Origin: Tetrapyrgos nigripes
Lineage: Eukaryota > Basidiomycota > Agaricomycetes > Agaricales > Campanellaceae
Length of the DNA stretch: 64,000 bases
Direction: 5' to 3'
Assembly: GCA_013368315.1 (NCBI GenBank)
Contig: JAACJM010000276.1
Location: forward strand, 1-64,000
Shown: positions 4,587-55,302 of the stretch, piece by piece
Numbering within the stretch: position 1 is the first letter of the stretch
Layout: every line of letters starts with the position of its first letter
The notes under the pieces: generated by a model
What the model was told of the DNA's origin: nothing
What the model saw: only the letters and a program-made list of their open reading frames with translations
The model's database searches: none
Made by a program: the position numbers and the translations under genes

Positions 4587-6907
4587 TCACTGAGCAACTT
4601 CGGCGAGACTCTCCATTTCTTCCAGAGCTTCTTCACACGTCTCTACACAATCTTGCAGCTCCCCATGAGACGCAAAAAGATCCCTAGCTTCCTGAAACTT
4701 CTTTCTAGCCTCACTATACTCGCCCATATCTTTGAAAAGCAAGCCAAATTCAAAAAGACACCATCCCATATTATAATGAGCTGTAGACTGAAGCTGAGAG
4801 TAAGATCCCAACGCATCCGTGAAGGCTTGCTTTGCCAGCTCATATTGACCCATTTTTCTGTATATTATCCCTGATCTGTCCAAACACCTACCCATCTCAC
4901 TAACATCATTTATAGTGGAATAAATTGCATATGCTTCAAGGATTAATGAAAGAGCCTCATCTAATTGATTCTGATCTTCCAGTGTCAGGCCCAGTACTAT
5001 CAAACAATCTGCAGTACCTTTCTGATCTCCTATGCTCTGGTACACAGCCCTGGCTTCAGACAATGTTTCTCTTGCCTCATTATATTTGGATTGCTGCCTG
5101 TAAATATCCCCGAGGTTCAACAGACAGTATGCAGTACCCCCTTGGTTTCCTATGCTCTGGTACAGAACTTTGGCTTCTGACAGTGTTTCTCTTGCCTCAC
5201 TATATTTGCCTTGCATCCTGTAAATGTTCCCCTGGCTCTGCAAGCACTCTGCAGTACCAAGCTGACTTCCTACACTCTGGTACAGAACTCTGGCTTCTAA
5301 AAGTGTTTCCGTCACCTCACTATATTTGCTTTGCATATAATAAATGTCCCCCTGGCTCTTCAAGCAGTTTGCAGCACCACCCTGATTCCCTATGCTCTGA
5401 AACAGAACTCTTGCTTCGGACAGTGCCGCTGTTGCCTCATTATATTTGGATTGCCCCCGGTAGATCTCACCCAGACTATATAAACAACCTGCAATCCCCT
5501 GCTCGCTGCGTATCTGTTCAAAGCGAGATTTGGCTTCTGCCAGTATTGCTATTGCCTCGTTATATCGACTTTGCATTCTGTGAACGTTACCCATCTGCCG
5601 CAGACAATTGGCTGCTTCATATTCATTGTTCATGTTTTGAAACTTGACTCTAGCTTCTGTCAAAAACTTTGCAGCATTACTGTACTGGTTAACATAGTAA
5701 TATTTATCTCCCAATGTTTGAAGACAGAGTGCAGCCTTTTCTTGTCCCCCTTGACCTTGATATTGTGAAAATGTTTTAAAAAAATTCAAAGTATGTAACT
5801 CCAAATCTTCCCCTGGTTTCGAATTGCTTGATATCATTTCTGTGATTCCAACATAAAATATCTCAATCTGGTTACGGAAGAAGTCCGAGATACTATATCT
5901 TGCTGCAATGTACTCTCTGACTGGCGCAAGCATCATGAGTGCTTCACTTTTCTCAAGCACAAGTGAGCAATCCAGCAATTGTAATACTTTGATTTCTGGC
6001 TCAGGAACATCAGGCAACATTTCACTCAGTGTTTGGTTCCAGTTAGGTACACCATTGGGTAGATATGACAATGCTCCTAAGAGATCCTTTGCCGCCGGAT
6101 CAAGTAGTCTGACAGATAATTCTATGGAAAACTCTACATTTGTCAGTTTTCCAGGCTGTGCTCCAGACTCTGAGAGTATTTTAGTCTTTAACTCATTCCA
6201 TCTCCTGAGCAAATTCTCCAGACTAATCTTTTTTGCAAGCTGGGCTATGAGTCGGATTGCCAGAGGGACACAGTCCAACTGTTCATTCAGATGATCAATT
6301 TTCCCAGAATTATCCTCTGTTTTGATCTTTCTGGAGACCTGATAGAATGCTTCTCTGGCAGCTTCCATGGATAATGTTGGTATCTGAGATTCTCCAAGTA
6401 TCTGCCATGCAATCTCTCCTGGCCCTTCCATCCCTCTCATGGTCACAATGAGAGTAACACAGCTGAAATCAGCAATCTTTTCAATAAAATGCTTGACATC
6501 TGTTCTTGCATCCTTGTAATTCCAAGGTGTTTCAAAATTATCAAGGATAAAAATAAGAGGGTTATGATTGATTTGCAGATAATCATATAAGATGTCATGC
6601 TGGCTTTTCCCTTCCTGCATCTTTAGCCCTAATACTTGAATCAAGCCTTGGATGAGACCATTTTTATCCTCCAGAATGTCACAAGGCAAGAAATGGAACC
6701 TTGGAAACTTGGCCTGAACTTCTGGCTGATTGCTGATGACAAGTGCGAGGATGTTTTTCCAATTCCTCCAGGTCCAAGAATTGCCAAGTGGTGTTGGCCT
6801 CTTCTACAGAGAATTTCAACTCCTTTGTTGACAAGTTCATCCCTTCCCATGAAAATCTTGGGTGGTGGAGGTGTTGCAAAGTGGATATCACTGTTCGAAA
6901 GTCTCAT
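4587..6907 (-). pseudogene. NB-ARC/TPR STAND (NLR-like) gene, copy A, frameshifted after the P-loop
   Basis: The gene resembles fungal STAND immune or incompatibility receptors: an ATP-binding switch domain and a superstructure-forming TPR sensor. The start (6907-6750) encodes MRLSNSDIHF and the P-loop GPGGIGKTS. One G present in copy B is missing near 6750, so the frame breaks right after GKTS. The remainder (6689-4587, 700 codons) stays open with Walker B (IFILDNFETPW), an IVTMRG sensor-like strand and CVPLAIRL. From about 5738 to 4640 there are roughly nine 40-residue TPR units (x-C-L-x-x-x-G-x-I-Y-x-x-Q-x-K-Y-x-E-A). Without a sequencing error or an intron, copy A cannot make the full receptor. 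Confidence 0.85.
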
Positions 6908-15993: not shown

Positions 15994-17571
15994 ATGTCTT
16001 CCAATAACGCTATCAACAACTCTGAAAGCATCTTCAACGTTCCCATCCTCAATACCACCAATTATGAGTTTTGGAACTATGCTATCACCTGCCTCCTTGA
16101 AGCCAAAGGGCTTAGCAGGGTTGCTTCAGGTACCCAGAAGCGTTATGTGAACACAAGTCCCACCGAAACAGGTAATGCACCTTCTTTTCCTGAAGGATTT
16201 GTACAAGTTTCGGATGAAGTTTTTAATGCTTTAACTAAATCTGAACAATCGTCTTATAACCAAATCATTGATACCTTCGCTGATCAATGGAATCAACATC
16301 AAATTTTGGTTAAAAAACACAATTGGGAAACAGTTGAAACTTATAAGCTTCAAAGTTCTTGGGATGACAAAGATGAACAGGCTTTGGGTTTTATTTCCTC
16401 CTTTCTTCCAAATGATGTGGGTTTGGAAATGAGAGAGTTCACTAGAGATGAAATAGATGAAGACCCTTGTGCCAAAGCAAAAGGAGATTATACCTCGCAT
16501 ATGCTTTGGGATAAAGTAGACAAGAAATACAGTTCTCCTGGCCCAACGTCATGGTTCTTAGACTTCAAAGAGTTCATGTCTTGGACGCTTGATGAGAAGA
16601 AAGATCCTGCAAACCAGATTGCATCTCTGGGAGCAGTTCTCACACGTCTTAAAGCCTATGGATTCACAGTTGATGACAAGTTTAGAGCTCTTTTCTTGAT
16701 GGATCACATTCCGCAATCCTGGGGAAACTATGCTCAATTTACACTTGCCACTATCGAACCAAAGAACCTGACCATGGCACATGTGGAAGGACTTATTCTC
16801 GTCGGGTACAAACAACGGACTGGTCAATCTTCTGAATCATCTCCTGTTACTGGCATTACTGGAGATAAACGAAAGTTTGATTCTGCACCCAATTGGAACA
16901 ACCAGAAGGCTGGATCTTCTAAACAGAAGAACCAAAACAAGGGGAAGGGTAAACAACCCAAACCTCAAGAACCTTCTAATAATGTTACAACAGGTGATGC
17001 AAATCAAGGGGGAGATAAAAAGAAGAAAACTTGTCGCAGTAAGAAGAAGGGTTCCAAAAAAGGTGCTGCTAATTTAGCTAATCCAGAAGTTGAAGCTGAT
17101 TCAGATTCTGATGATGATGCTCCTTTAATGGTGACCGCTTTTATGGCAAATCCTTTTATAAATGCCACATTAGATCCTATCGAAATCAGTGATACTGATG
17201 ATCTACCAGAGACATGTGAGCAACCCATTTATGAACTTCTTCCCTATCATAACTTTCTGATTGTCCGATCAGATTGCTTTATAGACGAGAACAATGATTC
17301 TTCTTTGAAGGAAAGAGTAAAGCAGAACTTAGCTAAACAGGTCAGACCACAAACAATTTCGGGTTACTTCATTCTTACTCATTATGAGAGACTCATGATC
17401 AATGAACTCGCACAGGAGACAGTTGATTTTGAAAGCTTTCTCAGAGTAGAAGCTCATCATCAAATGACCCATAAGCTAGCCGAAAGTTGGGATTACACAT
17501 ATAATTCTGATGGCACTCATACAGAACCTTATCTTCAAGCAAAGAGGATCTCAATGGTGATGAAGACATGA
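15994..17571 (+). CDS. Copia gag polyprotein
   Basis: The 525-codon open frame starts MSSNNAINNSESIFNVPILN and has the LNTTNYEFW motif that opens the UBN2/DUF4219-type gag of copia elements. A helical gag region follows, then a Lys-rich basic stretch (about residues 300-360) and an acidic tail. I see no CCHC knuckle; the single Cys in KKKTCRSKKKG may mark a degenerate one. The stop overlaps the next frame's ATG as ATGA (17568-17571), a -1 step. Gag would form the particle that packages the element RNA. The frame is open, although the downstream pol is broken. Confidence 0.8.
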   Translation: MSSNNAINNSESIFNVPILNTTNYEFWNYAITCLLEAKGLSRVASGTQKRYVNTSPTETGNAPSFPEGFVQVSDEVFNALTKSEQSSYNQIIDTFADQWNQHQILVKKHNWETVETYKLQSSWDDKDEQALGFISSFLPNDVGLEMREFTRDEIDEDPCAKAKGDYTSHMLWDKVDKKYSSPGPTSWFLDFKEFMSWTLDEKKDPANQIASLGAVLTRLKAYGFTVDDKFRALFLMDHIPQSWGNYAQFTLATIEPKNLTMAHVEGLILVGYKQRTGQSSESSPVTGITGDKRKFDSAPNWNNQKAGSSKQKNQNKGKGKQPKPQEPSNNVTTGDANQGGDKKKKTCRSKKKGSKKGAANLANPEVEADSDSDDDAPLMVTAFMANPFINATLDPIEISDTDDLPETCEQPIYELLPYHNFLIVRSDCFIDENNDSSLKERVKQNLAKQVRPQTISGYFILTHYERLMINELAQETVDFESFLRVEAHHQMTHKLAESWDYTYNSDGTHTEPYLQAKRISMVMKT

Positions 17572-41886: not shown

Positions 41887-44217
41887 TCACTGAGCAACTT
41901 CGGCGAGACTCTCCATTTCCTTCAGAGCTCTTTCACACATCGGTACATATCTTTGCAGCTCTCCATGAGACGCAAAAAGGTCCCTAGCTTCCTGAAACTT
42001 CTTTCTAGCCTCACTATACTCGCCCATGTCTTTGAAAAGAAAGCCAAATTGATAAAGACACCCTCCCATACTATAATGATCTGTAGACTGAAGCTGAGAG
42101 TAAGATCCCAATGCATCCGTGAAGGCTTGCTTTGCCAGCTCATATTGACCCATTTTTCTGTATATAACTCCTGATTCGTTCAAACAGTAACCCATCTCAC
42201 GAACATCATTTATAGCGGAAAAAATTGCATATGCTTCATGGATTAATGAAAGAGCCTCATCTAATTGATTCTGATCTTCCAGTGTCAGGCCCAGTGTTCT
42301 CAAACAATCTGCAGTACCTTTCTGATCTCCTATGCTCTGGCACACAACCCTGGCTTCAGACAATGTTTCTCTTGCCTCTTTATATTTGGATTGCAGCCTG
42401 TAAATTTCCCCGAGGTTCCACAGACAGTGTGCAGTACCCCCTTGGTTTCCTATGCTCTGGTACAGAACTTTGGCTTCTGACAATGTTTCTCTTGCCTCGC
42501 TATATTTGCCTTGCATGCTGTAAATGTTCCCCAGGCTATCCAAGCACTCTGCAGTACCAATCTGACTTCCTATGCTCTGGTACAGAACTCTGGCTTCTAA
42601 AAGTGTTTCCGTTGCCTCACTATATTTGCTTTGCATCTTGTAAATGTCCACCTGGCTCAGCAAGCATTTTGCAGCACCACCCTGATTCCCCATGCTCTGA
42701 AACAGATCTCTTGCTTCGGACAGTGCCGCTGTTGCCTCATTATATTTGGATTGCATCCGGTAGATGTCACCCAGACTCCATAAACAATCTGCAATCCCCT
42801 CCTCGCTGCGTATCTGTTCGAAGCGAGATTTGGCTTCTGCCAGTATTGCTATTGCCTCGTTATATCGACTTTGCATTCTGTGAACGTTACCCATCTGCCA
42901 CAGACAATTGGCTGCTTCATGTTCATTGTTAATGTTTTGAAACTTGACTCTAGCTTCTGTTAAAAACTTTGCAGCAGTACTGTACTGGCTAACAAAGTAA
43001 TATTTATCTCCCAGAGTTTGAAGACAGAGTGCAGCCTTTTCTTGTCCCCCTTGACCTTGATATTGTGAAAATGTTTTAAAAAGATTCAAAGTATGTAACT
43101 CCAAATATTCCCCTGGTTTCAAATAGCTTGATATCAATTCTGTGATTCTAACATAAAATATCTCAATCTGGTGAAGCAAGAAGTCCGAGATACTATATCT
43201 TGCTGCAATGTACTCTCTGACTGGCGCAAGCATCATGAGTGCTTCACTTTTCTCAAGCACAAGTGAGCAATCCAGCAATTGGAATACTTTGATTTCTGGC
43301 TCAGGAACATCAGGCAACATTTCACTCAATGTTTGGTTCCAGTTAGGTACACCATTGGGTAGATATGACAATGCTCCTAAGAGATCCTTTGCTGCTGGAT
43401 CAAGTAGTCTGACAGATAATTCTATGGAAAACTCTACATTTGTCAGTTTTCCAGGCTGTGCTCCAGACTCTGAGAGTATTTTAGTCTTTAACTCATTCCA
43501 TCTCCTGAGCAAATTCTCCAGACTAATTTTTTTTGCAAGCTGGGCTATGAGTCGGATTGCCAGAGGGACACAGTCCAACTGTTCATTCAGATGATCAATT
43601 TTCCCAGAATTATCCTCTGTTTTGATCTTTCTGGAGACCTGATAGAATGCTTCTCTGGCAGCTTCCCTGGATAACGTTGGTATCTGAGATTCTCCAAGTA
43701 TCTGCCATTCAATGTCTCCTGGCCCTTCCATCCCTCTCATGGTGACAATGAGAGTAACACAGCTGAAATCAGCAATCTTTTCAATAAAATGCTTGACATC
43801 TGTTCTTGCATCCTTGTAATTCCAAGGTGTTTCAAAATTATCAAGGATAAAAAGAAGAGGGTTATGATTGATTTGCAGATAATCATATAAGATGTCATGC
43901 TGGCCTTTGCCTTCCTGCACCTTTAGCCCTAATACTTGAATCAAGCCTTGGATGAGACCATTCTGATCCTCCAGAATGTCGCAAGGCAAGAAATGGAACC
44001 TCGGAAACTTGGCCTGAACTTCTGGCTGATTGCTGATGACAAGTGCGAGGGATGTTTTTCCAATTCCTCCAGGTCCAAGAATTGCCAAGTGGTGTTGGCC
44101 TCTTCTGCAGAGAATTTCAACTCCTTCGTTGACAAGATCATCCCTTCCCGTGAAAATCTTGGGTGGCGGAGGTGTTGCAAAGTGGATATCACTGTTAGAA
44201 AGTCTCATTAACAGTAT
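41887..44217 (-). CDS. NB-ARC/TPR STAND (NLR-like) receptor, copy B, main exon
   Basis: An open 773-codon frame from MRLSNSDIHF. P-loop GPGGIGKTS at residues 45-53, Walker B LLFILDNFETPW at 118-129, IVTMRG sensor-like strand near 154, CVPLAIRL near 213-220, and a winged-helix region to about 330. TPRs of 40 residues each run from about 391 to 755. Such STAND proteins act as nucleotide-gated switches that oligomerise when the repeat domain binds a ligand; fungal members act in non-self recognition. There is no enzymatic effector domain in this exon. Against copy A, TPR differences pile up at helix-A surface positions. The frame is intact, and upstream exons are needed for the N-terminus. Confidence 0.9.
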   Translation of the reverse strand: MLLMRLSNSDIHFATPPPPKIFTGRDDLVNEGVEILCRRGQHHLAILGPGGIGKTSLALVISNQPEVQAKFPRFHFLPCDILEDQNGLIQGLIQVLGLKVQEGKGQHDILYDYLQINHNPLLFILDNFETPWNYKDARTDVKHFIEKIADFSCVTLIVTMRGMEGPGDIEWQILGESQIPTLSREAAREAFYQVSRKIKTEDNSGKIDHLNEQLDCVPLAIRLIAQLAKKISLENLLRRWNELKTKILSESGAQPGKLTNVEFSIELSVRLLDPAAKDLLGALSYLPNGVPNWNQTLSEMLPDVPEPEIKVFQLLDCSLVLEKSEALMMLAPVREYIAARYSISDFLLHQIEIFYVRITELISSYLKPGEYLELHTLNLFKTFSQYQGQGGQEKAALCLQTLGDKYYFVSQYSTAAKFLTEARVKFQNINNEHEAANCLWQMGNVHRMQSRYNEAIAILAEAKSRFEQIRSEEGIADCLWSLGDIYRMQSKYNEATAALSEARDLFQSMGNQGGAAKCLLSQVDIYKMQSKYSEATETLLEARVLYQSIGSQIGTAECLDSLGNIYSMQGKYSEARETLSEAKVLYQSIGNQGGTAHCLWNLGEIYRLQSKYKEARETLSEARVVCQSIGDQKGTADCLRTLGLTLEDQNQLDEALSLIHEAYAIFSAINDVREMGYCLNESGVIYRKMGQYELAKQAFTDALGSYSQLQSTDHYSMGGCLYQFGFLFKDMGEYSEARKKFQEARDLFASHGELQRYVPMCERALKEMESLAEVAQ

Positions 44218-44465: not shown

Positions 44466-44535
44466 CTTGTTGTCCAAAATAGTTTTGTGTGTTATACTGG
44501 GCTCCTCCCACAACATTGATTTGACTGTTGTCCAT
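44466..44535 (-). CDS. Probable first exon of NLR copy B
   Basis: A short frame, MDNSQINVVGGAQYNTQNYF then GQQ, ends at GTAAGA. It is followed by a small open block (44359-44325, reading GASESPTTSKK) flanked by CTATAG and GTGCGC, then the NB exon. Asn/Gly/Gln-rich leaders of this sort precede NB domains in many agaricomycete NLRs. The exact junctions into 44217 are unresolved. The exon has no match in copy A, which has a much longer leader. Confidence 0.5.
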
Positions 44536-44763
44536 GGAAAAATCCTTTGCCTGCCCAAGTATGCTACAAGTTCAAATTTCAAGTGAATGAATCACTGAGA
44601 TTGTGAGTCTGAGATTGAAGGTACAAACCTGACATCAGCCTGTCTTGGTCTTGAGATAGTGATCTTATTCCTGCCATAAATCTTCAATTCATTACACTTT
44701 CATGAAATAAACGGGAAAAAATCATACACAGGATTACCATTATCTGTGGAATCTACTCAGATC

Positions 44764-45222
44764 TTAGTAATATTCATAATTAAAATTCCAAAAATCACCT
44801 TGCTTGATCAAAGGCTGCTCTGTTGGGATTTCTTGCCTGATAGCGACCTTCACATTTCGAGCCAGACTGAGTAGCTTTTCTGACGCAATACTATTTCCAT
44901 GATAAGATTTCCCTGTAATAATGGGAATCTTGCTACCTGGATACTGATAAACTGATGCAGGCTGATAGACTTGAGTACTCTCAGGTTGCGTGCTCTTTGA
45001 TTTCAGAGTCCCTTTGAAACCTTTTTGAGGTTGAGGAATCTTAGAAGCTGGATGACCTCTTTGCTTCGGCAGGCCAGCAAATGTTCTTTTTGGCTGAATA
45101 ACTCGATTTTCTGTCCCACTGTATCTTTCCGAACCTGCAGGTATCTTTTTGGCTCCTCCTTGAGCCTCGCTAGCCTTGCTATGTGAAGGTCCACCTCCAA
45201 TCTTCCCACTGCGCCAAGACAT
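44764..45222 (-). CDS. Hypothetical basic protein or alternative NLR leader exon
   Basis: Open minus-strand frame from MSWRSGKIGGGPSHSKASEA to FWNFNYEYY-stop, rich in Lys, Gly, Pro and Ser (SKSTQPESTQVYQPASVYQY). An acceptor-like CACAG precedes the start. It lies 5' of the copy B NLR, where copy A has its own long leader (MSRRNLSNI...). It may be that leader's replacement or a separate small gene. No domain recognised. Confidence 0.35.
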   Translation of the reverse strand: MSWRSGKIGGGPSHSKASEAQGGAKKIPAGSERYSGTENRVIQPKRTFAGLPKQRGHPASKIPQPQKGFKGTLKSKSTQPESTQVYQPASVYQYPGSKIPIITGKSYHGNSIASEKLLSLARNVKVAIRQEIPTEQPLIKQGDFWNFNYEYY

Positions 45223-45426: not shown

Positions 45427-45925
45427 TACCTGGTGAAAGTGGAAGAACAAGACCTCAGACCAAAGGAAAGTGTCCTGTTCACGTGATGCCGCTTTGATTG
45501 GTTTGCACGAGATGAAAACTTATGCCTCGTGTCACTGTTAGTGGTACACTTCTGCGAAATAATAAGGTTTGATACGTACCTGGTGAAAGCGCGAGAAGAC
45601 CGGAGGAAAATGTCCCGTTCACGTGAAGCCGCTTTGATTAGTTTGCCCGAGATGAAAACTTTTGCCTCACCGTTAGTGGCACACTTCTGTGAAATGATAA
45701 GTTTTGATACCTACCTGGTGAAAGCGCAAGAAGACAGAAAAGTGTCCAGTTCACGCGAGGTCGCTTTGATTGGCTGCGCAAGATGAAGATTTTGACCTCG
45801 TGTCACGAAATGATAAGGTTTGATACCTACCTGTAAGAAAGCGCAAAAAGACCGAAAGAAAGTGTCGAGTTCACGTGAGCCTGCTTTGATTTGTCTGCGC
45901 GAGACGATATCTTTTGGCTCGTGTC
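45427..45925. repeat. Four tandem 115-150-bp units with CACGTG-like cores upstream of NLR copy B
   Basis: Units start at about 45427, 45577, 45712 and 45827 with TACCTG(GTGAAAG). Each has the core GTTCACG(TG)A followed by CGCTTTGATT and ends with ATGATAAGGTTTGATAC. Three of four units have the palindrome CACGTG; one reads CACGCG. The array lies 5' of the minus-strand NLR. The core resembles the array 5' of copy A (7732-7985). CACGTG is a bHLH-type binding site; a regulatory role is inferred. Confidence 0.75.
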
Positions 45926-46380
45926 ATGGTTTTTACTGGAGGATAGAGGCGCAGACTTTGACTTCAGGGAATGACTCTGAATGAGCAGTTTAAAGAACCC
46001 AACTGAAAACTCCAGGGAAAACGTCTAGGGCTCCAAGCAGATTGAATGATCTGGCTGTTACCTGCAGATGGAGGCTTGGATTCAGATTGGTGTAGACAAA
46101 GCAGGTCGGTACATTACATCCGATCTGAGCGGTTTAAAGGACCCAACTAAAAACTCCAGGGGAAACGTCTAGGGCTCCAAGGAGATCAAATGATCTGGCT
46201 GTCACCTACAGATGGAGGCTTGGATTTAGATTGGTGTAGACAAAGCAGCTCGGTACATTGCATTCGATCTAAGCAGTTTAAAGGACCCAACTGAAAACTC
46301 CAGGGGAAACGTCTAGGGCTCCAAGCAGATCGAATAATCTGGCCGTCACCTACAGATGGAGGCTTGGATTCAGATTGACA
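45925..46380. repeat. 144-bp tandem repeat, about three units
   Basis: AGATGGAGGCTTGGATT recurs at 46066, 46210 and 46354, exactly 144 bases apart. Units contain AACTCCAGGGGAAACGTCTAG and ACCCAACTGAAAAC. The first unit is diverged and the last is cut at its start. No coding sense. Confidence 0.9.
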
Positions 46381-51558: not shown

Positions 51559-54500
51559 TTAGTGTCGGTAAGCTCGGGGGTGTTTCTGGTGGAACTCCTC
51601 GATCATGTCCTTTACCTTGGTCAGGTTTGACGTGGGTACCCAGGTATTTTCTGAGTCGGGATAGTCCAACCATTTGATCAGGTATTGAGTACCTTTCCCG
51701 TTCCTGGTTGGCTTGGAGTCTAGTATCTTTTCGACATCGTATTCTTCGTCTGCATCTAGTAATTCCACGGGAGGTTCGGGGTAGTTTGGTCCGTGGGCAT
51801 CTGTTTCCACGTACGGCGTTAACAGGGAAGCATGGAAGACGGGGTGTATCCGCCAGGTTGTCGGTAATTTCAATTTGTAGTTAACCTGGCTGATTACCTC
51901 AATGATCTCGAATGGTCCATGACGACGATCGGACAACTTAGCTTTTGGTCTCGTTGTCTTCAGGTTTTTTCCGTCGAGTAAAACCCTATCTCCGACTTTG
52001 TATCCTGTCCAGGACATGGAGTGGTTCCCATACTGTGTCTTCATCGTTTCAGCAGCCGACGTCAGGCTTGCTGTGAGTTCGTCTCTGAGTCGGTTAAGGT
52101 TTTCCAGTCGTTCTTCTACTGTCGGTAGGTTAGAGGTTGGATTAAATGATGGGAAGAAGCGTGGTTGGTATCCGTGTAAGAGTTCGAAGGGGGATTTTCC
52201 AGTTGCAGAATGTATCCTGGTGTTATGGCTGAATTCGGCGTATGGTAGATAGTCCACCCAGTCTTCTTGTCGATAGTTGCAAAAGATCCGTAAGAACTGC
52301 TCCAATTCCTGATTGTATCGTTCTGACTCTCCGTCGGTCTGTGGGTGATAGGCGGTACTGAGAGCTGAAGTGATGCCTAGCTTCTCATGGACCGCGGCCA
52401 TGACCTTACTTGCGAACTGCGGGCCTCGGTCGGATATCATCTTGTCCCATAATCCGTATCGCTGCCAAGTATTGTCAAGCAGTAGATTCACCGTACCGTC
52501 ACTGTCAATTGTTTTTGTACACGGCGATATGATGACCGTTTTTGTTGACTTGTCAACTGTGACGTGGATTGCGTTGAATCCTTTGCATTCGGGGAGATCC
52601 GTGATGAAGTCGGTGGTGATAGTCCCAAACGGACGTTCTGGGATTTCGGTGGGAATCAAGGGAATTCGTGTGGGATGGTTGTTGGGTTTTGTCGCTTGGC
52701 ATTTGGCGCAGCCAGTTACGTAGTCCTTGACAAAGACTGACATTCCTGGCCACCAGAATTCCCTGCTGACTAGTTCATAAGTTTTGTATCGTCCGGGGTG
52801 TCCTGTTGCCAGGGAGTCATGGTGGAGTCTTACGATATCCCGTCGGAGATCGTTATCTGCTGGGACATAGATTTTCCCTCGAAATAGGATGATTCCGTCT
52901 TCGTAATTCCATTCCTGTAGGTTTTTTACCAGCGAACGTGGTCCGTTTCGTAGGATGACATCTAAGTCACTTACTACCTCTAGGTCCCTCTTGGGACATT
53001 CCTTGATCCGCCTTCGCAGTTCTACATCTCCTATAGCTGTTACTGTCCCTTGCCTAGTTGCCCGGATTCGGAAGAATTTGGGGTCAAGAAGGACTCTGTC
53101 GGTGTTGTCATTCTCGGTCCCGAGTTTGTGATCCGGTCGTCTAGATAGCGGATCAGCTTTATTCAGACTTCCGGGTTTATGTTGGAGGGAGAACTCAAAT
53201 CTAGTAAGGAATAACGCCCATCGTGCCTGTCGTCGACTGAGCTTTTGGGCGGTCTGGAAATATTCCAAGTTCCGGTGATCGGTGAAAATTTCGATAGAAT
53301 GGGGGGCTCCTTCCAAATAGTGTCTCCATGCTTCTAGTGCACGGATGATTGCCAATAGTTCCTTGTCGTGGATGTCGTAGTTTCGTTCGGTCTCTGAAAG
53401 GGATTTGGAGATGTAGGCCACTGGGTGCCATCGGTCGTCTTCCCCGGTTTGCATGAGTATTCCCCCCGTTGCGTAGTCTGATGCGTCTACTTCTACTCGG
53501 TATGGTTTTGTGTAATCTGGCATCAGTAGGACGGGTTTTGATGTGAAGGCCGTTTTGAGGGTTTGGAATGCTTTCTCGACCTCTGTTCCCCAGTTCCAGT
53601 GGTTGTCCTTCCTTGTCAGATCGAAGAGGGGCCGTGCGATTTTTGAAAAGTCTTTGATGAAGCGTCTGTAAAAGTTTCCGAATCCTAGGAAAGCCTGAAC
53701 TTCCTTTACGGTTTTTGGAGTTGGCCATTCGAGTACCCCTTCTACTTTGACTGGGTCCATAGATAGAGTATCGTGCGAGACAATCAGTCCCAAAAAGTCA
53801 ACCTTGTCTGCTTCAAATATGCATTTTTCGGGTTTGGCGTATAGGTCGTTGTCCCGTAGTCGTCGTAAGACTGTTTGGACTAATTCCCTATGTTCATCTA
53901 GGTTGCGAGTGAATATCAAAATATCATCCATGTAAATGACGATCTTCCCTTGGTCAATGAGATCCTTGAAGATAGTGTTCATCATTGCTTGAAAGGTCGC
54001 CGGTGAGTTCATTAATCCAAAAAACATGACCGTTGGCTCGAATAGTCCTCGATTGGTTTTGAAGGCGGCTTTCCACTCATCTCCTTCTTTGATACGGATA
54101 TTATTATATCCCCATCGTAGGTCGATTTTGCTGAACACATATGCGTTTTTGAGTTTGTCGATTAGTTCTGGAATGAGGGGTAGTGGGTATGCGTTTTTTA
54201 CGGTACCCTTGTTGAGCGCTCTATAGTCCTGTACTGGGTGTAGTTTTCCGTCCTTTTTCTTTACGAAGAAGAAGGGACTTGCCATTGGGGACTTCGATGG
54301 TTTAATGTATCCTTTCTCGAGGTTTTTGGTCAGGAAGGCATCGAGTTCGGACTGTTCGTTTGGGGAGAGAGGGTACGTTTTACATGCGCGTGGTTGGAAG
54401 CCGTCTTGTAGTTCGATCGCGTGGTCCCAATTACTCCGTTGGGGTAGGCGTTCTGAAGTTTTTTTATCGAACACCGACAGGTATTCATGGTATTGTTTTG

Positions 54501-55302
54501 GTATTTGTTCTTGTAACGAAGTTGCTGAGTTTGTGGATTTGTTTTCAGTGTTTTGTAGCGCTTTGTTAAAGGCAGCTCGGATACTCAGCTTAGTATCTGA
54601 TAGACCTTCATCAGGATCAGTGGGGGTGTCTAGGTATTCCATGACAAGTTCACTCCATTGTCCCGGAACACTCCATTGCCCGGTTGTGTCTTCTGAGGAG
54701 AGCATTGCTCCTAAGTCGATCCGTTGTAATCGGATCCTTTTTGGTCGTTGTGATCGACGTTGTCCCGCTATTTTGGGCTGTGGTGTTGTTTTGTGGGGAC
54801 CTATGATATCTTTGAATACCACTTGGTAGTCTCGGTGATATGTTCTGGGGTCTACTATTTCAGGTTTCTTTATTCTCGAAGGAGAGCTTTTCGACTTAGC
54901 TTCAGTCTTTACTGGGGTCTTTTCCAGTGTGCAAGTGCCGGGGCATTGCGTTAGATTGATTTCCGACGTTGTCCAGTTGATCTCTGGGTTGTGGTGTCGT
55001 AACCAATCGGTACCCAAAATGATATCGTGATCTCCGATATCCGTGATGTAAAATTCGGCGATCTCCTCGTGATGGGATTGGTGATCTGGGGCGTAAATTC
55101 GTAGTCTTTGGACGGTATAATGTCTTACCCATCCCATTACGTTTTCTGATCCGTCGACGTTTCGAACTGGAAATGGTTTTTCTAGAGGGATGCGACTGAG
55201 ATGATGTTTTTGGGCGAAGGCATTATTAATGATGATCCCTTCTGCTCCACTGTCTAGTAGAGCGGTTGCGTCGATTTTTTGTCCAGTTATTTTCCCGATC
55301 AA
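51559..55302 (-). CDS. Chromovirus pol polyprotein
   Basis: The intact frame (1247 codons from the listed start; the open frame reaches upstream to overlap gag near 55470) has the order of Ty3/gypsy pol. Protease DSGAEG is at 17-22. RT has QDYRALN (358) and YMDDILIF (457-464). RNase H has VEVDASDYATGG and TDHRNLEYF. Integrase has HHCC (HHDSLATGHPGRY...CAKCQ) and the DDE residues in TTDFITDLP, SDRGPQFAS and DGESERYNQE. A C-terminal chromodomain carries YLIKWLDYPDSENTWVP. Pol lies in the -1 frame relative to gag, so a frameshift is needed. Chromodomains steer integration to marked chromatin. All catalytic residues appear present. Confidence 0.95.
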   Translation of the reverse strand: MIGKITGQKIDATALLDSGAEGIIINNAFAQKHHLSRIPLEKPFPVRNVDGSENVMGWVRHYTVQRLRIYAPDHQSHHEEIAEFYITDIGDHDIILGTDWLRHHNPEINWTTSEINLTQCPGTCTLEKTPVKTEAKSKSSPSRIKKPEIVDPRTYHRDYQVVFKDIIGPHKTTPQPKIAGQRRSQRPKRIRLQRIDLGAMLSSEDTTGQWSVPGQWSELVMEYLDTPTDPDEGLSDTKLSIRAAFNKALQNTENKSTNSATSLQEQIPKQYHEYLSVFDKKTSERLPQRSNWDHAIELQDGFQPRACKTYPLSPNEQSELDAFLTKNLEKGYIKPSKSPMASPFFFVKKKDGKLHPVQDYRALNKGTVKNAYPLPLIPELIDKLKNAYVFSKIDLRWGYNNIRIKEGDEWKAAFKTNRGLFEPTVMFFGLMNSPATFQAMMNTIFKDLIDQGKIVIYMDDILIFTRNLDEHRELVQTVLRRLRDNDLYAKPEKCIFEADKVDFLGLIVSHDTLSMDPVKVEGVLEWPTPKTVKEVQAFLGFGNFYRRFIKDFSKIARPLFDLTRKDNHWNWGTEVEKAFQTLKTAFTSKPVLLMPDYTKPYRVEVDASDYATGGILMQTGEDDRWHPVAYISKSLSETERNYDIHDKELLAIIRALEAWRHYLEGAPHSIEIFTDHRNLEYFQTAQKLSRRQARWALFLTRFEFSLQHKPGSLNKADPLSRRPDHKLGTENDNTDRVLLDPKFFRIRATRQGTVTAIGDVELRRRIKECPKRDLEVVSDLDVILRNGPRSLVKNLQEWNYEDGIILFRGKIYVPADNDLRRDIVRLHHDSLATGHPGRYKTYELVSREFWWPGMSVFVKDYVTGCAKCQATKPNNHPTRIPLIPTEIPERPFGTITTDFITDLPECKGFNAIHVTVDKSTKTVIISPCTKTIDSDGTVNLLLDNTWQRYGLWDKMISDRGPQFASKVMAAVHEKLGITSALSTAYHPQTDGESERYNQELEQFLRIFCNYRQEDWVDYLPYAEFSHNTRIHSATGKSPFELLHGYQPRFFPSFNPTSNLPTVEERLENLNRLRDELTASLTSAAETMKTQYGNHSMSWTGYKVGDRVLLDGKNLKTTRPKAKLSDRRHGPFEIIEVISQVNYKLKLPTTWRIHPVFHASLLTPYVETDAHGPNYPEPPVELLDADEEYDVEKILDSKPTRNGKGTQYLIKWLDYPDSENTWVPTSNLTKVKDMIEEFHQKHPRAYRH

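Follow-up and report, generated by a model that had tools for sequence, protein, structure and literature searches.

Do the differences between paralogous receptors of a fungus gather on the surface expected to touch their ligands, and has selection put them there? Basidiomycetes carry large sets of NLR-like genes, and we know of none with a proven ligand. Two genes raise the question in the window (the whole 64,000-nucleotide stretch of DNA analysed here, contig C271 of the 98.5-Mb genome of the Agaricales mushroom Tetrapyrgos nigripes). These genes, gene A and copy B, both contain arrays of nine 40-residue TPR units, with two additional residues between units 8 and 9.

The main exon of gene A (41887..44208, minus strand, stop codon included) is an open frame of 773 residues encoding an NB-ARC/TPR receptor. 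It has Pfam matches to NB-ARC (residues 26-226, 43531..44133, minus strand; 26.0 bits, cut-off 23.5) and TPR_12 (146.9 bits, cut-off 30.1). The intact P-loop expected of a fungal NLR is present (GPGGIGKT at residue 45), as are C-terminal superstructure-forming repeats: there are nine units (41947..43032, minus strand) that AlphaFold2 folds into a superhelix, with helices A and B in each. On the minus strand, units 1-3 lie at 42913-43032, 42793-42912 and 42673-42792, units 4-6 at 42553-42672, 42433-42552 and 42313-42432, and units 7-9 at 42193-42312, 42073-42192 and 41947-42066. Copy B is 90% alike in protein, an open frame from a TTG (4587..6689, minus strand) whose nine units (4647..5732, minus strand) keep the register of gene A. 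A one-base deletion in its P-loop, at about window position 6750, breaks the frame and hence interrupts the NB-ARC domain; P0004, the database model of this copy, begins downstream of the deletion. Unless the deletion is a sequencing error, copy B is probably a pseudogene or a truncated copy. Plus-strand open frames lie antisense to both TPR arrays (42225-42932, 235 codons; 4925-5647, 240 codons) and probably arise from codon usage in the repeat. Retroelement genes are present in the window too: one pol-like frame includes reverse transcriptase, integrase and a chromodomain (51559-55302), and another frame is copia-type and gag-like (15994-17571).

Upstream of the main exon, a short exon (44466..44553, minus strand), with boundaries inferred from splice-like GT/AG and a counterpart in the annotated protein P0006, encodes QAKDFSMDNSQINVVGGAQYNTQNYFGQQ, perhaps a candidate amyloid-like signalling motif. 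An exon ahead of the NB-ARC domain encoding FSMDNSQINVVGGAQYNTQNYF is found in copies of both of the NB-ARC types described below (seven loci, one strict pattern). Amyloid-like motifs have been described at Agaricomycete NLR N-termini, and gene A resembles Agaricomycete NB-ARC/NACHT receptors in its short N-terminus with a candidate motif ahead of the NB-ARC; however, that source, in its available text, covers the annotation of N-termini rather than selection on sensors, and the motif of gene A is a candidate (PMC9815663). In our inferred gene model, an open stretch at 44766..45222 (minus strand), with no known domain, is a possible first coding exon. No N-terminal Pfam domain was found among the matches listed for three annotated relatives (for P0002, the best 25 of 32 families). 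Further upstream are tandem repeats at 45464-45806 and 45982-46377, with periods of 135 and 144 bases. Copies of this block that are 93-100% alike occur on contigs C387, C429, C417 and C286, each with a family member, and 69-84% copies on C18, C27, C132 and C123; it is possibly the family's promoter region.

The original prediction, drawn from gene A and copy B alone, was that the two arrays differ mainly at ligand-facing TPR positions, through diversifying selection or repeat shuffling. Its count proved exact. With unit 1 set aside, the remaining eight units differ at 24 of the 48 sites formed by positions 2, 5, 6, 9, 12 and 13 (5, 8, 3, 4, 2 and 2 differences, respectively) and at 18 of the 272 others (Fisher p 2.9e-12, sites treated as independent). 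With the published set of concave positions (2, 5, 9, 12 and 13), the figures are 21/40 and 21/280 (p 4.5e-11). Position 38, which was absent from the predicted list, differs in four of eight units and matches positions 2 and 9 in strength when more paralogues are included. When the two genes are compared, the TPR half has a pN/pS of 0.072/0.068 and the NB-ARC half one of 0.021/0.046. The closest of all pairs, gene A (L009) and L010 on contig C417, differs by two bases over 773 codons, and the single replacement (K to R) falls at position 12 of unit 4.

A protein search of the genome gave at least 30 loci (L009-L038) from the 100 matches listed. From these we assembled 14 distinct in-frame TPR arrays, gap-free over 371 codons. 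Three loci (L014, L016 and L030) were included up to a late TAG and not beyond, and copy B (L018) contributed its TPR part only. Among the loci left out, L010 is near-identical to L009; L019, L022 and L026-L029 are diverged or partial; and L023-L025 and L033-L037 are broken or partial or lack a full TPR array. L038 and L031 are one and the same gene. We then fitted a custom codon model in which positions 2, 5, 9, 12 and 13 had silent and replacement rates of their own, distinct from those of the remaining sites.

In the 14 arrays, concave dN/dS was 5.2 on the whole tree, 3.35 on per-unit trees and 6.6 on a star tree, compared with 0.82-0.93 in the rest of the array, and dN/dS = 1 at concave sites was rejected in each case (p 1.6e-10, 3e-6 and 1.3e-13). 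The signal does not depend on the pair in which it was discovered; the 12 paralogues other than gene A and copy B gave 5.0 and 3.1 (p 6e-9 and 6e-5). In neutral simulations, with trees reshuffled every 20 codons (300 runs) or every 7 codons (150 runs) and a threefold raised neutral rate at concave codons, the largest concave dN/dS was 1.56 and 1.82, respectively, so that none of the 450 runs reached 3.35. The 5% test was passed with dN/dS > 1 in 13/300 and 6/150 runs, which is about the nominal rate, and an earlier set of 40 runs had the same outcome. Neither a dN/dS near or below 1 at these positions in the codon models, nor equal variability elsewhere in the units once more paralogues were aligned, was found. 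The data therefore support selection for change at the concave positions of the family's TPR arrays, which is the first of the two processes originally predicted.

The strongest alternative is that concave sites are merely unconstrained within the TPR scaffold, and that the copies drift while they decay. Several copies are indeed broken: besides copy B, the frame is interrupted or a stop is present in L022, L023, L024, L025, L035, L036 and L037. Concave positions are also the most variable in TPRs at large, such hypervariability being general among TPR families according to the available text of PMC1261162. Furthermore, a tree-free minimum-change count puts the concave ratio near 1 (1.13 when concave sites have a silent rate of their own, and 0.70 at other sites), because silent change is also raised at concave sites in that count (0.77 per site v 0.34 at others). 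However, relaxed sites would reach a dN/dS of 1, not 3-5, and a value of 1 was rejected on three kinds of tree, without the discovery pair, and also among the 10 open copies only (concave dN/dS 4.5 and 3.7; p 6.5e-7 and 1.6e-5). The six type-A open copies gave 3.3 and 3.0, and four broken or shortened copies 6.4 and 5.0. The NB-ARC domain remains constrained (dN/dS 0.25 in 10 type-A copies, and 0.31), as does the TPR core, with 16 positions of the 40-residue unit below dN/dS 1 at p < 0.05. We consider drift unlikely.

Very unlikely, in our judgement, is a mutation or conversion bias that speeds all change at concave codons, silent change included, without selection. The simple counts speak for it, since they show raised silent change: in addition to the minimum-change figures above, all-pairs pS is 0.120 at concave and 0.080 at other sites, with overlapping intervals. 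The ratio counted over all pairs is likewise weaker than in the codon model, 1.88 (bootstrap 1.23-3.09) at concave sites versus 0.71 (0.51-1.00) elsewhere. The codon model, however, found no increase in dS at concave sites relative to others (0.62 v 0.85, 0.92 v 0.75 and 0.97 v 1.49 on the three kinds of tree; p 0.32, 0.50 and 0.18), and the simulations with a threefold neutral rate at these codons stayed at or below 1.82. Concave sites with two bases are split evenly between transitions and transversions (32 of each; 113 and 63 elsewhere), and none of the bases is favoured, as expected of selection on replacements and not of a base-specific mutator. Slightly less probable still is an artefact of recombination or chimaeric assembly among paralogues about 92% alike: recombination in the arrays is strong and, according to the available text of PMC12222747, conserved NLR repeats are not reliably assembled from short reads, but mixing of paralogues hits all positions alike and cannot favour one helix face, simulated recombination left concave dN/dS unraised, and the units within a gene differ (mean DNA identity 54%; at most 84% for units 2-8 in 14 genes) and so are not easily confused.

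We also tested each of the 40 unit positions. With a shared dS, positions 2, 5, 6, 9, 13, 15 and 38 pass Bonferroni correction for 40 tests, while 12, 31, 36 and 40 are nominally significant. When each position has its own dS, only 2, 5, 9, 15 and 38 remain below p 0.05, and positions 6, 12 and 13, tested singly, are not significant (p 0.17, 0.18 and 0.20). Position 5 is occupied by up to six different residues per unit among the 14 arrays (units 4, 7 and 8). In canonical 34-residue TPRs, positions 33 and 34 are hypervariable too, according to the available text of PMC1261162; unit positions 33 and 34 of the 40-residue unit show no signal (p 0.4 and 0.55), and the residue directly ahead of the next helix A is here position 38.

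An AlphaFold2 model of the array, built from 59 sequences (the 58 relatives came from the best 120 of 444 proteins), has a mean pLDDT of 91.2 and a pTM of 0.74. In its predicted layout helix A begins at position 37 and ends at position 13, and helix B occupies positions 17-33. Mapped onto this model, positions 38, 2, 5, 6, 9, 12 and 13 lie within 63 degrees of one direction of helix A (moment p 0.004) and share a single stripe; change on helix B has no preferred direction in the model (p 0.63). Position 15 falls outside the stripe, position 40 (nominal p 0.002) is on the opposite side of helix A, and position 31 is on helix B. Among solved structures, a STAND-TPR protein (6mfv) and ligand-bound LGN come closest to the model; by sequence, LGN and kinesin light chain do. 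6mfv has the same overall STAND-TPR architecture as gene A, and LGN/Pins forms a superhelix of 40-residue TPRs with ligands bound in the LGN groove, although both are only 14-17% identical to gene A in sequence and LGN is a polarity protein without an NB-ARC. The diversified residues are predicted to line up as a single stripe along the groove of a superhelix resembling that of LGN.

Shuffling, the second process originally predicted, holds in one form. The arrays are mosaics that have been exchanged in register between paralogues, even across two NB-ARC types, whereas units changing place or number were not seen: none of 98 units (units 2-8, 14 arrays) matches better out of register. Mean DNA identity between units is 0.92 in register and 0.54 out of register, and all 14 paralogous arrays of this genome have nine units and no indels. 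Recombination among the arrays is significant (PHI-like p 5e-4), with an Rmin of 43 at 106 sites. The fraction of incompatible site pairs rises from 0.35 within 30 bp to 0.55 at 60-120 bp and is then flat, linkage being lost beyond about 60 bp, and within any one array the nine units have between them 4-7 different nearest neighbours. L014, L016, L030 and L023 carry the same TAG, seven residues short of the usual end, which would fit exchange of the 3' end as well, or its co-inheritance.

Two deeply diverged NB-ARC types carry TPR arrays of one pool. NB-ARC pS is 0.71 between the types (32 pairs) and 0.07 (28 pairs) and 0.12 (6 pairs) within them, and aligned pN between types A and B is 0.21; TPR pS is 0.079 between and 0.087 and 0.084 within the types. 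Overall, NB-ARC and TPR distances show no correlation (Mantel r -0.12, p 0.72). Within types, the pS values of the two parts are correlated (Spearman 0.41, from non-independent pairs), indicating that exchange is incomplete. The neighbouring genes L031 and L032 have an NB-ARC pS of 0.015 and a TPR pS of 0.080, and L020 and L021 have 1477/1483 upstream bases in common, yet a TPR pS of 0.087. In some pairs of one type-A and one type-B locus the flanks are alike on both sides, which leaves either the TPR array or the NB-ARC cassette as the module that moved. The NB-ARC of L035 (C276) looks mosaic, first about 70% like gene A and then more than 92% from about locus position 2250.

It is possible, and we propose it tentatively, that many loci, with at least two deeply diverged NB-ARC chassis among them, draw on one shared pool of nine-unit TPR sensor arrays, which moves between them in short, in-register tracts, while selection rewrites a seven-residue stripe in each unit; this would be a third mode of germline library. 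If true, new combinations of sensor and chassis could arise with no change in array length, with about 60 contact residues per receptor.

Relatives in other species show a similar distribution of differences. Among 48 of the 55 listed proteins of Dendrothele bispora (444 pairs, 1819 unit comparisons), positions 2, 5, 9, 12 and 13 differ at a frequency of 0.52 versus 0.23 elsewhere, and all five are within the eight most variable of 40, with 15, 24 and 36 ranking alongside. In Collybiopsis confluens (8/8 proteins, 11 pairs, 69 units) the frequencies are 0.48 and 0.22, with a less clean ranking in which position 2 is outside the top ten. Pairs were 70-99.5% identical and not independent; because they overlap, we give no p-value for either species. 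Tetrapyrgos nigripes itself also has long arrays of 42-residue, kinesin-light-chain-like TPRs (L001 on C332, L003 on C37, L004 on C54, L006 on C11, and C343:50549-53308). By eye, their units look near-identical with few varying positions (for example SNLAxTYxSxGKWEAAEQLGEQVVGLxKEVLGExHPxTLTSM), like those of the conserved-repeat NLRs of Podospora, and both modes of diversification seem to coexist in this genome.

Selection on concave TPR positions has been published for Podospora, and our finding of selection is therefore of a known kind: according to the available text of Dyrka et al. 2014 (PMC4986451), three such positions are positively selected in one Podospora NLR. The same text describes TPR NLRs which, like gene A, have an NB-ARC/TPR architecture with selected variable sites on the concave face. 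However, the high internal conservation (HIC) TPR/ANK NLRs of Podospora anserina have units more than 85% alike and from 2 to more than 14 TPRs between strains, unlike the units of gene A (at most 70% alike in protein), the nine units in 14/14 arrays and the in-register exchange between paralogues (PMC4986451). Unit identity above 85% over at least 100 residues, which characterises HIC repeats, was accordingly absent from gene A (maximum 70% in protein, for units 1-7); positive selection at concave positions, another of their characteristics, was found in the 14 arrays, more weakly in tree-free counts (1.1-1.9). The HNWD genes het-d, het-e and het-r of Podospora, as described in the available text of PMC12222747, resemble the present family in having few selected positions per repeat, a predicted interaction surface and exchange between paralogues, but they differ in having a WD40 propeller, genetically proven recognition of HET-C and predominantly within-gene exchange, while gene A is known from sequence. 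The brown algal NB-ARC-TPR and LRR-ROCO genes are likewise candidate receptors with diversifying repeats, and positively selected concave sites are reported for brown algal LRR genes; their repeats, however, are on separate shuffling exons, whereas the array of gene A lies within one open frame of 773 codons (PMC11378527, PMC10197012 and PMC12258605, in the text available).

Among the papers listed in our searches of an open-licence library, there was no codon test across basidiomycete NLR paralogues. As far as these searches show, what is new here is the paralogue-level test in a basidiomycete, the fixed length and register of the arrays, positions 15 and 38, and one TPR pool shared by two NB-ARC types.

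The explanation we consider likely is that the gene A family encodes NB-ARC/TPR proteins that probably act as intracellular immune receptors. Selection would diversify the predicted ligand-facing residues on helix A of each of their units, while in-register exchange keeps the nine-unit scaffold alike. In STAND proteins, ligand binding releases the NB-ARC, which binds nucleotide and oligomerises, bringing the N-termini together. By analogy, ligands would differ from copy to copy, and would probably be proteins that are non-self or altered-self. A ligand in the TPR groove would release the NB-ARC for nucleotide binding and oligomerisation with its N-termini gathered, and the signal would pass to the N-terminal part, perhaps through an amyloid-like motif.

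Given that the paralogues differ mostly at predicted groove residues and that codon tests favour change there, the mushroom probably maintains a varied set of detectors. The family also uncouples two features that occur together in Podospora, since selection can diversify a repeat surface without closely similar units that grow and shrink in number. The family offers a readable recognition code, with the same stripe in each unit, a fixed geometry and many copies per genome; one could read the contact residues directly from the sequence, group receptors according to predicted specificity, and use swapped stripes to screen for ligands.
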